DNA of 64,000 nucleotides. Source: Henriciella sp. (GTDB taxonomy: Bacteria > Pseudomonadota > Alphaproteobacteria > Caulobacterales > Hyphomonadaceae). The translations under genes and the position numbers were made by a program. The DNA is taken from contig JABSQA010000003.1 in the NCBI GenBank assembly GCA_013213825.1, positions 1 to 64,000 on the forward strand. The letters run 5' to 3'. The notes beneath the pieces are model-generated. The model had not been told where the DNA came from. It searched no databases and worked only from the letters and a program-made list of their open reading frames with translations. Shown one piece after another: positions 39,484 through 46,360 of the stretch (the first letter of the stretch is position 1; the number at the start of each line of letters is the position of its first letter).

Positions 39484-40050
39484 GTGCGTGCGAGATGGTT
39501 TGTAGCTCTTTCTTTGGGAGTTGTTGCGGCGGCGATGCCAGTCATTGCGGACATTCGCGATGATGAGCCTGTCTTACGTTTACGCCTGACCGACCCAATC
39601 CTAGACGCCGCGCCGAAACCTATCTTACGTCCTCGCCTAAGCGAAGATGTCACCGCCCGTTCTGCGCCTATGCCAATGCCGGTTGTGACTTTGGAAGAGG
39701 TCGGTCGGGTCAGTAAGCTCGCCTATATTTCGACGCCGCATCCGAATCTCGTTGTTGCGGTCGGGGCGACGGAGGATCGCTCTGAACTTGGGCGGCAAAT
39801 CGACCGGGCGATTATGGATATGACCCCCGAGAACAGCCTTTACGACATGGATCAAGACAGCATGCCCTTTATCGGCTTCGGTCTTCGCGCGGGTCAACAG
39901 CACCAAGGCTGGGCTGTTGATGCGACAGTCGGTGCCGGCCTGATCAATGAAGCCGAGACGGCCCGCCTGGCGGAATGGTCTTATTCAGAGGCATCAGATC
40001 GATTAGAACCAGAAGCGCGCGCCCATGTTCGCCTTCGATATCGCTTCTAA
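39484..40050 (+). CDS. Hypothetical exported protein, possibly outer-membrane associated
   Basis: ORF 188 aa; signal peptide; C-terminus HVRLRYRF ends in aromatic residue. Confidence 0.6.
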   Translation: MRARWFVALSLGVVAAAMPVIADIRDDEPVLRLRLTDPILDAAPKPILRPRLSEDVTARSAPMPMPVVTLEEVGRVSKLAYISTPHPNLVVAVGATEDRSELGRQIDRAIMDMTPENSLYDMDQDSMPFIGFGLRAGQQHQGWAVDATVGAGLINEAETARLAEWSYSEASDRLEPEARAHVRLRYRF

Positions 40051-40052
40051 GT

Positions 40053-40730
40053 CTAATTCAAAATCTGCGCGGTGACGCTATCCGACGCCGCATTCGCGGC
40101 CTCGATCGCGGCGTGAACTGAGGTCATCACAGCCTCAGTCGCGCTGGATGAGAGGCATTGGCCCGCGGCGATCGATGCGATCCGGTCTGCATTCTGCTCT
40201 AGCTCCGCCGCATCGAAATTATAGCTGAGAAGATCAACCGCGTGCGCAAGCGCGATGGTTAGGCACAATGTTTCATCCACCGATGCACGCTCGCTGAACA
40301 TGGCCTGCGCCATTTCGGCTTTGAGATGTGTCTCTAAGACGGGCGAGGCTTCTGGCCAGACCGTTCGGGAGAACAGTCCAAACACGCGAGTCCGTTCTTG
40401 CGACAAAGCGCCGAGATGACAAAGTTCATCCGCCAGCGTGGCTATGAAGTCTTTCTGATTGGCCAGCTCAGCAAGCCAATGGGAGAGCGGCTGCGGCGTC
40501 GCGGCGCGGCCGATCTCTGAGTCGCACATGCTGAGAAACGCCCCCAGGTTTTCACTGTGTCGTAGTGGGATCGCCCGACCGGTCTGGGTTTCAAGTTCGA
40601 GACAGCCACGTAAGAACAATTCGGCCAGGGCCGCGCCAGTTAAGGCAGGTTGATAATAAGCTTTCTCCGTTTTGCCCGTTTCATCATTCAAAGATAGAAG
40701 AAGGATCGCTTGAGGAAGTGTGATGTCCAT
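40053..40730 (-). CDS. GOLPH3/VPS74-like (GPP34 domain) protein
   Basis: MDITLPQAILLLSLNDETGKTEKAYYQPALTGAALAELFLRGCLELE matches the bacterial GPP34 N-terminal pattern; start at 40730. Confidence 0.72.
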   Translation of the reverse strand: MDITLPQAILLLSLNDETGKTEKAYYQPALTGAALAELFLRGCLELETQTGRAIPLRHSENLGAFLSMCDSEIGRAATPQPLSHWLAELANQKDFIATLADELCHLGALSQERTRVFGLFSRTVWPEASPVLETHLKAEMAQAMFSERASVDETLCLTIALAHAVDLLSYNFDAAELEQNADRIASIAAGQCLSSSATEAVMTSVHAAIEAANAASDSVTAQILN

Positions 40731-40827
40731 ACGTTTCTCTAATTGAGGGTGGATCTCAGCGCGTATCACGCTCCAATCCACCCACATCGGCCCTTTTCGA
40801 GCGGCGTGACAAGCGTTAGTCGACCCT

Positions 40828-41757
40828 ATGACGTTCGATTTGACGAAGATGCCTGAAACTCGCGGCAAACTGATGAAGGATGCATCATTGGCGCCCTATA
40901 CGTGGTTTCGCGTGGGCGGGCCGGCTGATTGCTTGTTCCTGCCGGCGGATGAGGCTGATCTCGCGAGCTTTCTCGCCGCCTTGCCGAAATCGGTGCCGGT
41001 GACCGTGCTCGGCGTCGGGTCGAATACAATTGTGCGCGATGGTGGCATAGAAGGTGTCGTCGTACGGTTGATGGGGGCGTATTGGGGACAAGTAAAAATT
41101 GATGGCGGCATGGTTCGGGCCCGGGCGGGCGCCCTTGATCTGAATGTCGCTAAAGCCGCGGCAAAAGCGGGCGTCTCGGGGCTCTCATTCCTGTCCGGCA
41201 TTCCAGGTTCGATCGGGGGCGCGGTGCGCACCAATGCAGGTTGTTATGGCTCTGAGCTTAGCGATGTTGTCACCGCCATTGATGGCATCAGTCGCGCAGG
41301 ACAACCTATTCACCTGACCCGTGAAGAAATTGGATTCTCCTACCGGCACACAGATTTTGCATCGGACATTATCGTGACGCGCTTACACTTGCAGGGCACC
41401 CCTGATGGCGACTCTGAACAGCTTGCAGACGAGATTGCGGCGCACCAAAAGCGGCGTGCAGAAACCCAACCGATCAAAGACAAAACGGGTGGCTCCACGT
41501 TCGCCAATCCGGATCCGCCAGGGACCCCCGATGCGCGATCGAGCTGGAAGCTGATCGACGCGGCGGGCTGTCGAGGTCTACGTGTTGGAGGGGCGATGGT
41601 CAGTGAGAAGCATTGCAATTTCTTGATCAATACCGGTGAGGCAAGCGCGGCAGATATTGAAGCTCTGGGCGAATTGGTGCGCGCGCGTGTCCTTGCTCAT
41701 TCCGGCGTGGATCTACGTTGGGAGATCCGCCGGATCGGTCGATTACAGGCCAACTAG
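40828..41757 (+). CDS. murB: UDP-N-acetylenolpyruvoylglucosamine reductase
   Basis: [61 protein letters not shown]. Confidence 0.96.
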
Positions 41758-43793
41758 AATGTGCCTTTGAGGCGCAATGTCAGAATGCCACCAAAGTTTC
41801 GACTGCGATCCTCAATCCGCACGAGATCACCGGTGCGGTTCGGGTCAAAGACGAGGCGGTTGAGCTCATCATCGCTGTCGAGGAGGTTGGCGTAGAAGAG
41901 CGTGCCGGTCATCCCGAAAATATCTTTGTGTTCGACAAAGCCCCAGGCAAACCCTTGGGGTTGATTGAACAAGGTCCGAACATCGCTACGGAAGCGCGGG
42001 GATTGTTCAAATTTCTCGTAATTGATGCCCCAAGCCCAATCCGTGTTCGGGATGTCATGCCGGAAATTGAGTTCGTAATAGTAGATCGTGTTTTGATTGA
42101 AATCGCGCGTTTCGCCGGTCAAAGGATCATCTAAGAACGTGTCTTGAAGGAAGACTTCATATTCGAGCTGCGCACCGCTCCAGCCGAGCTTGTCAAATTT
42201 CAAGGTGCCTTCAATTTCCATCGCTATGCGCGCGGCATCATCAATATTGCCCGGCCCTTCACCGCTGCCAATTGGCACCTGATCGACCAAGTCCTCAATT
42301 TGCTCACCGAAGACCTCAGCTGTGATCGCGCCCCATTCGCCAAAGTCCCGTTCGACCTCTAACGCAGCGCGCCATCTTTGATCGGGGACGATATCAATAT
42401 TACCGGTCTGATCATCGCCTTGGTTGAGATCCACATTAGAGACGAAATCAAAGAAATTGAGCTGACCAACTTCGCGCGAGACAGAGATATTGACGTTGGT
42501 TTTTTCGTCCATCGTCCAAGCGAGCGATGCGGATCCTTTGGGGCGCGTAAAGTTACGCGTTTGGCTGTTCGCACCGTCGGACATGATCTCAGATTGTTCA
42601 GCGCCAAGTGAAACTTGTAAGCGCAAGTCTTTATTCAATTGACGTCCGTGCGTGACGAAAGCCTCGCCGCGTTTCTCTTCCACGCGGACACCAGGATTAT
42701 CCATATCGATGCGTTCGACACTCTCGAACGTGGTGCCGCGAAACAGCATGGCATCGCTTTCCAGCGTGTTGAACGCGCCCTCGAGGGAGAATTGCCAGTC
42801 GGAATTGTTGGCGCCCGACAGATTGTATTCGCCGCGCAATATGCTCTCACTTTCCTCGACCACACGATCGAAGATTTGATTGCGTAAGTTTTGGCCATCA
42901 ATATCGGCACCAAAGAAGCGCGACCGGGTCGGACTGTGCTCGTTGCGCTGCAAGCCGATTAATTTCAGTCGGCCTGGGCCAACGCCAAGTTCATAGTCGC
43001 CGCTGACTTCGCTATTCCATTCATTCTCTTTGAATTGAAAGACGGTCTGACGAATCAGCGTGCCATCAGGAGAGAAGACGGAGCTGGTTTCGCGTTCATC
43101 TGGTTCCCACAAATTATACTCGGCATTGAGATTGGCGATATGGCCATTGCTCGGTTTCCAATTCAAACCGCCATTGAAGCCGACAAAATCCGCAATGAAG
43201 GTGCCGTCTTCTTCCCGATACTCGATGAGATTGCCGTCGCCGTCGAAGATATTTTCGCGGCCAGCCGCCGCGCCCCGACCCGGTTCTGTTTCGACGCCTA
43301 GATTCCAACCCAGGGTACCGGATCGACCATTTACCGAAAACTCAAACCACTCATAAGCAGGGGGCAGGTTCTCACGGAACCGGCTGCGAACCGACCAAGT
43401 ACCTGTGATGCCTTCAGCTTCGGCGATGACATTGGCGACTTGTCCGCTCAATCCTGGGATATCAAGATTGGCACCTTCTACAATCTCAATGCGATCGACA
43501 TTGGTTGCGGGGATTCGCGCCAAAGCTTGGCGTGCGCTGGTCGACTTTGAAGAAATACGCTGACCATTGATCAAGATATTTTCTTGCGCCTGGCCGAAGC
43601 CACGTTGTCCGTCGCTCCCTGAAATGCTGAAGCCGGGAATCTGCGAGATCATGTCGAGCGCTGTGCGCGGTGCAAATTGTTCGAAATCTTCGATCGAAAA
43701 GACCCGCGTATCCTCGCTGGAAGCCGCCGGCAATTGTGCATATGAGGGGAGAGGTATGCCAACGAGCATCCCAGCGAGGAAAGTGTATTTCAT
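41754..43793 (-). CDS. TonB-dependent receptor
   Basis: ORF 679 aa; signal peptide, plug domain ([38 protein letters not shown]...VDRIEIVEG), C-terminal F. Confidence 0.92.
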
Positions 43794-43980: not shown

Positions 43981-44243
43981 AAGCTCTGCAATTCTGACGC
44001 TGTGAGATGCACGGAAATGCGTCTGACAAGGTTTGTGCGGGAAACTGCGACGCCCTTAAGAGAGTTTTACGACTTTACTGCAAAATTGTCGGCTCATGGA
44101 TCGCGCCGCGTGGTGACCGCCGATCTGTTTGATGGTGTCAAAAAAGCTGCCCTAAGTGCAGCAATGAATGCGCATCAAGCGTTGCGGCAAGCCTGGCTCG
44201 ACGTGATCCAAGTCATTTTGGTGATGCGACTCGAGGACGAAAT
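43981..44243 (+). pseudogene. ddl: C-terminal remnant of D-alanine--D-alanine ligase
   Basis: Frame 1 reads CTEMRLTRFVRETATPLREFYDFTAKLSAHGSRRVVTADLFDGVKKAALSAAMNAHQALR, matching the Ddl segment xTEIxP..EFYDFxAKYxxGGSxHVVPA...AxxAHxALG; immediately upstream of ftsQ as in intact clusters. Confidence 0.75.
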
Positions 44244-45065
44244 ATGCCCCGCGGAAAAGGCAAAAACTCTGCCCCTGCTGAGGATATCGTGTTGGAACGG
44301 ACGCAAATCGCTTCCGTGATTTTCGGCATGGTCATGGTGATTGCATTGATTGTTGCGGGCGCGGCGAGGCTGGGCGGGTCTTTGTCACAGATCGGCAAAC
44401 GTTGGGGCAGTGCGGTGGATGGCGCGTCGCGATCTGTCGGTCTCTCAGTCGGCACAGTTGAAGTGATCGGACTGGAGCATGTTCCCGCGGTGGCCCGGCA
44501 GATCAAAACAGCGGCGATGATCGAGCCCGGAGAGAATATGTTCCGCGCGGATCCGCATATCATTCGCCGCCGAGTCGAAGACACCCAATTGGTCACCAAG
44601 GTCCGGGTCTACCGTCTCTGGCCTGATACGGTCATGATCTATGCCCACGCGGCGGAGCCGACAGCGCTTTGGAATGATGGCGAGCGGTGGGCCGTGGTTG
44701 ACAGTTTGGGGCGTATTATGACGCGCGCCAAGGCCGTGGATCATAGCCACTTGATCAAAACGACCGGCGCCGGTGGAGCTGAAGCGGTCCCTGCATTGGA
44801 AAAGGCCTTTGCCTTAGCGCCAGAGCTTCGATCGCACGTCAATTATGCGCGCCGCGTGGCCGAGCGTCGCTGGGACTTGGTGCTGAAATCCGGCGCTGTC
44901 ATGAAGCTGCCCACCGATGAGAGATTGTCCGCAAGTCTCCTTTTTTACGCGAAGATTGAGCCCTTGGCCGAACTGGCGCAACGTCCGATCAGCATCATCG
45001 ATTTGCGCGTGGCAGGCCGGGTATTTTTGACACCAAAAACAAATCAAATGGGGGGAGCAGCCTAA
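44244..45065 (+). CDS. ftsQ: Cell division protein FtsQ
   Basis: ORF 273 aa; N-terminal TM, POTRA-like VEVIGLEHVPAVARQIKTAAMIEPGENMFRADPHIIRRRVEDTQLVTKVRVYRLWPDTVMIYAHAAEPTALWNDG. Confidence 0.9.
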   Translation: MPRGKGKNSAPAEDIVLERTQIASVIFGMVMVIALIVAGAARLGGSLSQIGKRWGSAVDGASRSVGLSVGTVEVIGLEHVPAVARQIKTAAMIEPGENMFRADPHIIRRRVEDTQLVTKVRVYRLWPDTVMIYAHAAEPTALWNDGERWAVVDSLGRIMTRAKAVDHSHLIKTTGAGGAEAVPALEKAFALAPELRSHVNYARRVAERRWDLVLKSGAVMKLPTDERLSASLLFYAKIEPLAELAQRPISIIDLRVAGRVFLTPKTNQMGGAA

Positions 45066-46360
45066 TGGCGACGAGTGAACAGCGATTGAAACCAAGGCAT
45101 GTTGGCAAAGCGGGCACTGTGGTTGCTGCGCTTGATATTGGCTGTTCCAAAATCGCCTGTTTGATCGGTCGTGTTGATCCTGGCAGTCGGTCTGGTTTCT
45201 CTTTCATGGGCGGGGGGCGCCAACAAAGTCGTGGTTTCAATGGCGGCGGCATCACCGATATCGAAGACTGAGAACGCTCGATCCGCCTGGCGGTGGAGGA
45301 TGCGGAGCGCGAAGCGGGCGAACGAATTGACCGCGTTATCTTGGGAATCACAGGTCCCAAAGTCGATAGCCAATTGGCCGACGCGGAAATCGAACTCGGG
45401 CAACGCGAGATTAGCAGCAAAGACGTACAAAATGTCTGGGCCGAAGCGCTGAATAAGGTCGTGCCCAAGGATCGCGAACTCTTAGGCGCTTATCCCGTCA
45501 TGTATGGTGTGGATGATCAGGATGATATTCGCGATCCCGTCGGCATGATCGGCGATCGTGTTCGCGTATTGTTGAACATCGTCACGGCGCCCAAATCGCT
45601 TGTAAAGAACCTCAAAGAATGCGTGATGCGCGCACATCTTGGCATTGAACGCATCGTTCCTTCTGCCCTGGCGAGTGGTGCGGGGACATTGATTGAAGAC
45701 GAAATCGACAATGGCGCCATTTGTATCGATTTTGGCGGCGGCGTGACCTCTGTGTCTGTGTTCATGAATGGAGCGCCCGCTTGGCTGGACCTGGTCAAGG
45801 TTGGCGGATCGCGTGTGACCAGTGATATCGCTCAAGGAATTGGAACAACTTTCGCGGCAGCGGAACGCCTGAAGAACCTGCACGGAACAGCGGATAAAGA
45901 TGGCCCGGGCATGGCCGAACGGATTGAAGCGCCTGTGCTTGGTGATGATGGGCGCCTGAAAGCTGGGCGTATGACCCGCGGCGAGTTGACCGCAATGATT
46001 GAGCCGCGCGTCGAAGAGGTTTTCGAAATGGTCCAGGCGCATCTGACCGCCAGTCCCCTGCGCCCGATTATGCCGAGACGGACCGTTCTTACCGGGGGTG
46101 CGAGTCAGTTATCAGGCGTTCGCGACCTGGCCGCACGCGTGCTGAAGCAGCCCGTACGCCTCGGACGCCCGATAGATGCTGACATTTTAGGTGAAAATTT
46201 CGGTAATCCGGCCTTTTCCACAGCAGCAGGTCTGATAAGCTATGAAATTAGGGGATTTGCTGACGCATCCAAGGCTGGAGGTGCGGCGGCGCTGGCCGGA
46301 TCTGAGTCCGGGCGTGGAGTGATTGCTAAGGTCTTAAATTGGATCCGCGAAAATTTTTGA
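45065..46360 (+). CDS. ftsA: Cell division protein FtsA, interrupted by an in-frame TGA at 45269-45271
   Basis: Same-frame ORFs 45065-45271 (AALDIGCSKIACLIGR...GGGITDIED*) and 45293-46360 (EDAEREAGERIDRVILGITGP...GGGVTSVSVFMNG...LTGGASQLSGVRDLAARVL). Confidence 0.9.

Follow-up and report, generated by a model that had tools for sequence, protein, structure and literature searches.

A ddl remnant upstream of ftsQ in Henriciella as a probable surviving CtrA-controlled promoter region

In the 64,000-nucleotide stretch analysed here (the window; positions 1 to 64,000 of contig JABSQA010000003.1, from the 3.6-Mb, 276-contig draft genome of a Henriciella-like member of the Hyphomonadaceae), murB is followed by an inverted TonB-dependent receptor gene, a short piece of ddl, ftsQ and ftsA (Table 1). 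A sequence-only reading had taken this piece for a gene caught during decay, probably after insertion of the receptor gene.

Table 1. Coordinates of the features between murB and ftsQ in the window
Feature	Position	Strand	Evidence or remark
murB	40828..41757	+	Upstream end of the old murB-ddl-ftsQ order
TonB-dependent receptor	41754..43793	-	Pfam Plug; ancestral neighbour, which nine relatives have next to an intact ddl
ddl-derived fragment (Ddl residues ~204-248), no longer a gene	44050..44184	+	tblastn with the intact ddl of G006; weak Pfam Ddl_C match
CtrA-like box TTAA-N7-TTAC (TTAAGAGAGTTTTAC)	44056..44070	+	Pattern searches of Henriciella and Hyphomonas loci
Invariant 21-base run	44056..44076	+	Alignment of all eight readable loss-clade genomes
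Invariant TGCAAAAT, candidate core-promoter element	44079..44086	+	Loss-clade alignment
Invariant TGGATC, candidate core-promoter element	44097..44102	+	Loss-clade alignment; GGA codon in 54 of 55 intact ddl
Frame-switched, mostly decayed ddl 3' remainder and ftsQ leader	44185..44243	+	Pfam, alignment, frame check
ftsQ, the gene proposed to be driven by the element	44244..45065	+	Pfam FtsQ_DivIB_C, POTRA_1

Identity of the ddl fragment

The Ddl-like frame that had been noticed upstream of ftsQ is indeed present (ORF 44002-44319, + strand), and the intact ddl of a relative (G006) matched the fragment with 62% identity (tblastn, E-value of 2.5e-10). The Pfam profile Dala_Dala_lig_C, proposed earlier as a check, gave only 11.2 bits as a single frame and 15.7 bits (E-value of 0.011) when the frame was switched, both below the cut-off of 24 and too weak to prove a ddl fragment on their own. 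Its identity is settled by synteny, since an equivalent fragment occupies the same position in other species from which canonical ddl has been lost (hereafter loss genomes); together with the G006 match, this indicates that the homology is genuine and not due to chance. Only about 45-55 of the ~305 Ddl residues are left, with both the N-terminal two thirds (~200 residues), whose absence had been remarked upon, and the C-terminus gone. The previously described change of frame into the ftsQ leader proved to be real as well, and the rest of the window's assembly yielded no canonical ddl.

A mis-assembled but intact ddl might be suspected in so fragmented a draft, and in a window with an odd in-frame TGA in ftsA. 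However, the same fragment was recovered independently in seven other assemblies, including that of G041 (one contig, 100% complete), and none of these seven contains a canonical ddl, so that an assembly artefact is scarcely credible and was ruled out. The ftsA TGA itself (45269-45271; ITDIED*ERSIRL) falls where the eight relatives examined read IEALERS, with a Leu codon at that position. It is likely an assembly error because the local bases resemble a -1/+1 pair of changes, while a real lesion in this essential gene is conceivable. Further upstream, between murC and murB (39484-40868), two genes of 188 aa (+ strand) and 271 aa (- strand) are conserved in several relatives, and neither had an NCBIfam match.

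A single ancestral loss and a replacement ligase

Within a sample of 29 genomes of the genus, canonical ddl was the best Ddl match in 20, where it lies just upstream of ftsQ whenever both genes are on one contig. The remaining nine (G000, i.e., the window's own genome, and G001, G003, G008, G011, G015, G024, G041 and G042) have no canonical ddl, and all carry elsewhere an open frame of ~395-409 aa from a different Ddl branch. This ~400-aa Ddl was the best match in nine of nine loss genomes and in none of the 20 others. In a tree of FtsQ and FtsA, a branch with 100% bootstrap support separates the loss genomes from the rest, so a single loss suffices, placed in the common ancestor of these nine species of one genus. 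Across these species FtsQ is down to ~68% identical to that of the window, and the gene was thus not caught in recent decay, contrary to the sequence-only reading.

Neither did the TonB-dependent receptor take the place of the missing part of ddl. In G006, G013, G022, G019, G021, G012, G017, G043 and G004, the same inverted gene separates murB from an intact ddl, which shows that the receptor is ancestral, older than the loss, and did not displace ddl; its insertion was accordingly rejected as the cause. What stands of the earlier account is therefore a degenerate, dead piece of ddl, without the receptor as its cause and without recent decay. Even where different sequence later came to adjoin the fragment on its upstream side, as in G015 and G024, the association with ftsQ has persisted.

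The replacement Ddl of the window's genome (G000:C216, located at L001:280-1503) is 84-93% identical to its counterparts within the loss clade and only ~33% identical to canonical Ddl. It matches the full-length Ddl profile (PF07478, 117.8 bits) and scored 218.7 bits over nearly the whole of TIGR01205, below the curated cut-off of 245.65; for every NCBIfam family shown, its score stayed below the curated cut-off. This ligase presumably makes D-Ala-D-Ala. As far as the short flanks show, its flanking genes are common to the other loss genomes and not shared by the window's own, in which its neighbours are YceI-like and PadR-like. Plasmid records yielded only matches of ~30% identity (to Van-type and other ligases), which are uninformative on its origin. 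The absence of canonical ddl exactly where the ~400-aa Ddl is present resembles xenologous displacement, with the difference that the displaced gene has left behind what appears to be a regulatory piece embedded in it.

Conservation of the same bases in the fragment and in intact ddl

The fragment could be aligned for eight loss genomes, the contig of the ninth (G011) beginning inside ftsQ. Upstream of position 44055 these genomes are 23-48% identical, i.e., near random. The ddl homology then starts at an invariant block, in which 21 consecutive bases (TTAAGAGAGTTTTACGACTTT, the longest invariant run) are followed by the equally invariant TGCAAAAT and TGGATC. Invariant columns amount to 35 of 47 in the block versus 34 of 236 elsewhere (Fisher p-value of 7e-16). 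Hence, while its Ddl homology at the syntenic place and its truncated, broken frame are those of a pseudogene, the remaining sequence does not evolve neutrally.

Downstream of the block, the ddl frames are broken differently between the loss genomes. The window's ddl frame happens to be open through to ftsQ, which could point to re-use of the fragment (ORF 44002-44319) as a small protein gene. However, a stop interrupts the ddl frame ahead of ftsQ in six of the seven other loss genomes, the later homology lies in another frame in several, and there is little conservation of residues beyond the DNA block. The block is thus not conserved as protein, and re-use as a small protein gene, highly improbable, was ruled out on the frames. 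The surviving piece of ddl is thus under strong selection at the DNA level and contains a CtrA-like box, two features that the sequence-only reading had missed.

A pattern built on the 21-mer found exactly one match per genome in 28 of the 29 genus genomes, against zero for the reversed-pattern control in the same 29; the one unmatched genome, G011, has a contig that starts within ftsQ. A looser pattern matched 38 of 200 genomes of the order, once each and all of them Hyphomonadaceae. Moreover, the CtrA-like box is fixed within the intact ddl of Henriciella and Hyphomonas, where codon choice is constrained; in loci of both genera with this region assembled, it occurs a single time per genome, upstream of ftsQ. 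The leucine of the motif is encoded by the rare codon TTA in 55 of 55 intact Hyphomonadaceae ddl genes, so that this one column holds 55 of all 64 TTA leucine codons (the other nine being spread over 1374 leucine codons), and the motif tyrosine is TAC in all 55. No other segment of ddl shows as strong an excess of synonymous conservation as this motif, a level reached by eight of 5000 column permutations. TTAA and TTAC are the same in Hyphomonas and Henriciella, whereas the N7 spacer is not.

These data also bear on neutral decay, in which ddl would have been disrupted, the TonB insertion being one conceivable cause, and the fragment would be a chance leftover. The broken frames, the loss of most of the gene and the eroded flanking remnants would all fit. 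Nevertheless, chance is hard to square with a 21-base invariant run across eight species next to such diverged upstream flanks. In addition, intact ddl shows excess synonymous constraint on these very bases, and nine genomes have the receptor next to an undamaged ddl, all of which makes this explanation very unlikely.

CtrA and parallel losses in the Caulobacteraceae

The box TTAA-N7-TTAC has seven of the eight bases of an ideal CtrA site (i.e., two TTAA half-sites, 7 bases apart), only the final A being a C, and its half-sites are conserved across species ahead of ftsQ. The window's genome encodes CtrA (G000:C212, 77% identical to a Caulobacter-type query). In Hyphomonas neptunium, of the same family, the CtrA motif is TTAA-N7-TTAAC and CtrA regulates ftsAKQZ, ftsQ thus being among its targets (PMC7200025). 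On the other hand, 211 of the 222 CtrA ChIP sites in that species are intergenic, and the main text of that study does not mention ddl. The CtrA-activated ftsQA promoter of Caulobacter crescentus likewise has a CtrA box upstream of ftsQ, footprinted as CCGTTATGACGACATTAACGA (PMC3751295), and in Caulobacteraceae genomes we located this site inside the ddl coding sequence (R-Y-D-D-I-N). The Hyphomonadaceae box differs in its place, at L-R-E-F-Y and thus nearer to the start of ddl by ~50 codons, in reading TTAA-N7-TTAC, and in that its host gene is gone in the window's clade.

Six Caulobacteraceae genomes were found to have lost the ddl beside ftsQ while keeping a fragment with the footprinted CtrA site, and all six carry another Ddl elsewhere. 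G184 and G226 make up one set and G087, G156, G110 and G119 another, and an FtsQ tree requires at least two loss events among the six; relatives with both genes (e.g., G152, G160 and G212) look like an intermediate state. Together with the Henriciella loss, ddl has thus been displaced three times or more, and on each occasion the stretch with the CtrA box was spared. Among the Caulobacteraceae remnants the box has a variable spacer (TTATGACGACATTAAC, TTATCCCGGCATTAAC), as expected of a box made up of two half-sites. Just upstream of the CtrA site, the Caulobacteraceae remnants (L132-L135) also keep CTTGGTTGCCRAGNCGTAAC, a possible second control element.

The bases might alternatively serve ftsQ expression through a factor other than CtrA (i.e., another regulator or sigma-factor contacts only), or act in the 5' leader of the mRNA. 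The second half-site is indeed TTAC and not TTAA, and within the loss clade the spacer, TGCAAAAT and TGGATC are invariant as well. However, the half-sites of TTAA-N7-TTAC stay the same from genus to genus in spite of a changing spacer, ftsQ is regulated through related CtrA sites in two relatives (PMC7200025, PMC3751295), and the Caulobacteraceae losses keep exactly the footprinted CtrA site. An element independent of CtrA is thus unlikely, if less so than neutral decay.

The fragment is most probably the surviving CtrA-controlled promoter region of ftsQ(A), which arose within the coding sequence of ddl and persisted after the gene was lost; CtrA would bind it, and transcription would start from it. 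In the proposed course of events, a Ddl of a different branch would have made canonical ddl dispensable in the common ancestor of the Henriciella subclade, after which the ddl coding sequence would have been deleted and eroded. Purifying selection would have retained the stretch with the CtrA box and its neighbouring bases, since ftsQ, an essential division gene, would depend on this stretch. Within this stretch, the spacer (44060-44066) is invariant in the loss clade, while across genera only the half-sites are kept. Such invariance exceeds what two half-sites need, so that another factor or a core promoter element may contribute; the -35 and -10 elements could be assigned in more than one way, given the conserved TGCAAAAT and TGGATC.

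Promoters within ddl have a precedent in Escherichia coli, in which promoters of the ftsQAZ genes lie within the preceding ddlB. The likeness is in the position of these promoters; the differences are that CtrA is not known to play a part and that ddlB is intact. In the open-access literature, no account was found of a ddl loss that left the ftsQ promoter in place; an earlier one may exist.

Extended to the order, the parallels make it likely that a rule holds in the Caulobacterales, in which ddl has been displaced at least three times, each time leaving its CtrA-boxed stretch as a free-standing promoter, and in which an extra factor may read the spacer in the window's clade. The locus then offers a natural experiment on overlapping code: with the protein-coding job gone, the remaining bases reveal the regulatory part of the old gene. 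A further outcome is a predicted location for the ftsQ control site throughout the Hyphomonadaceae, together with an inexpensive way to test whether CtrA controls division genes in budding and prosthecate bacteria. The locus is also a warning that 'pseudogene remnants' adjoining essential genes can be live promoters.
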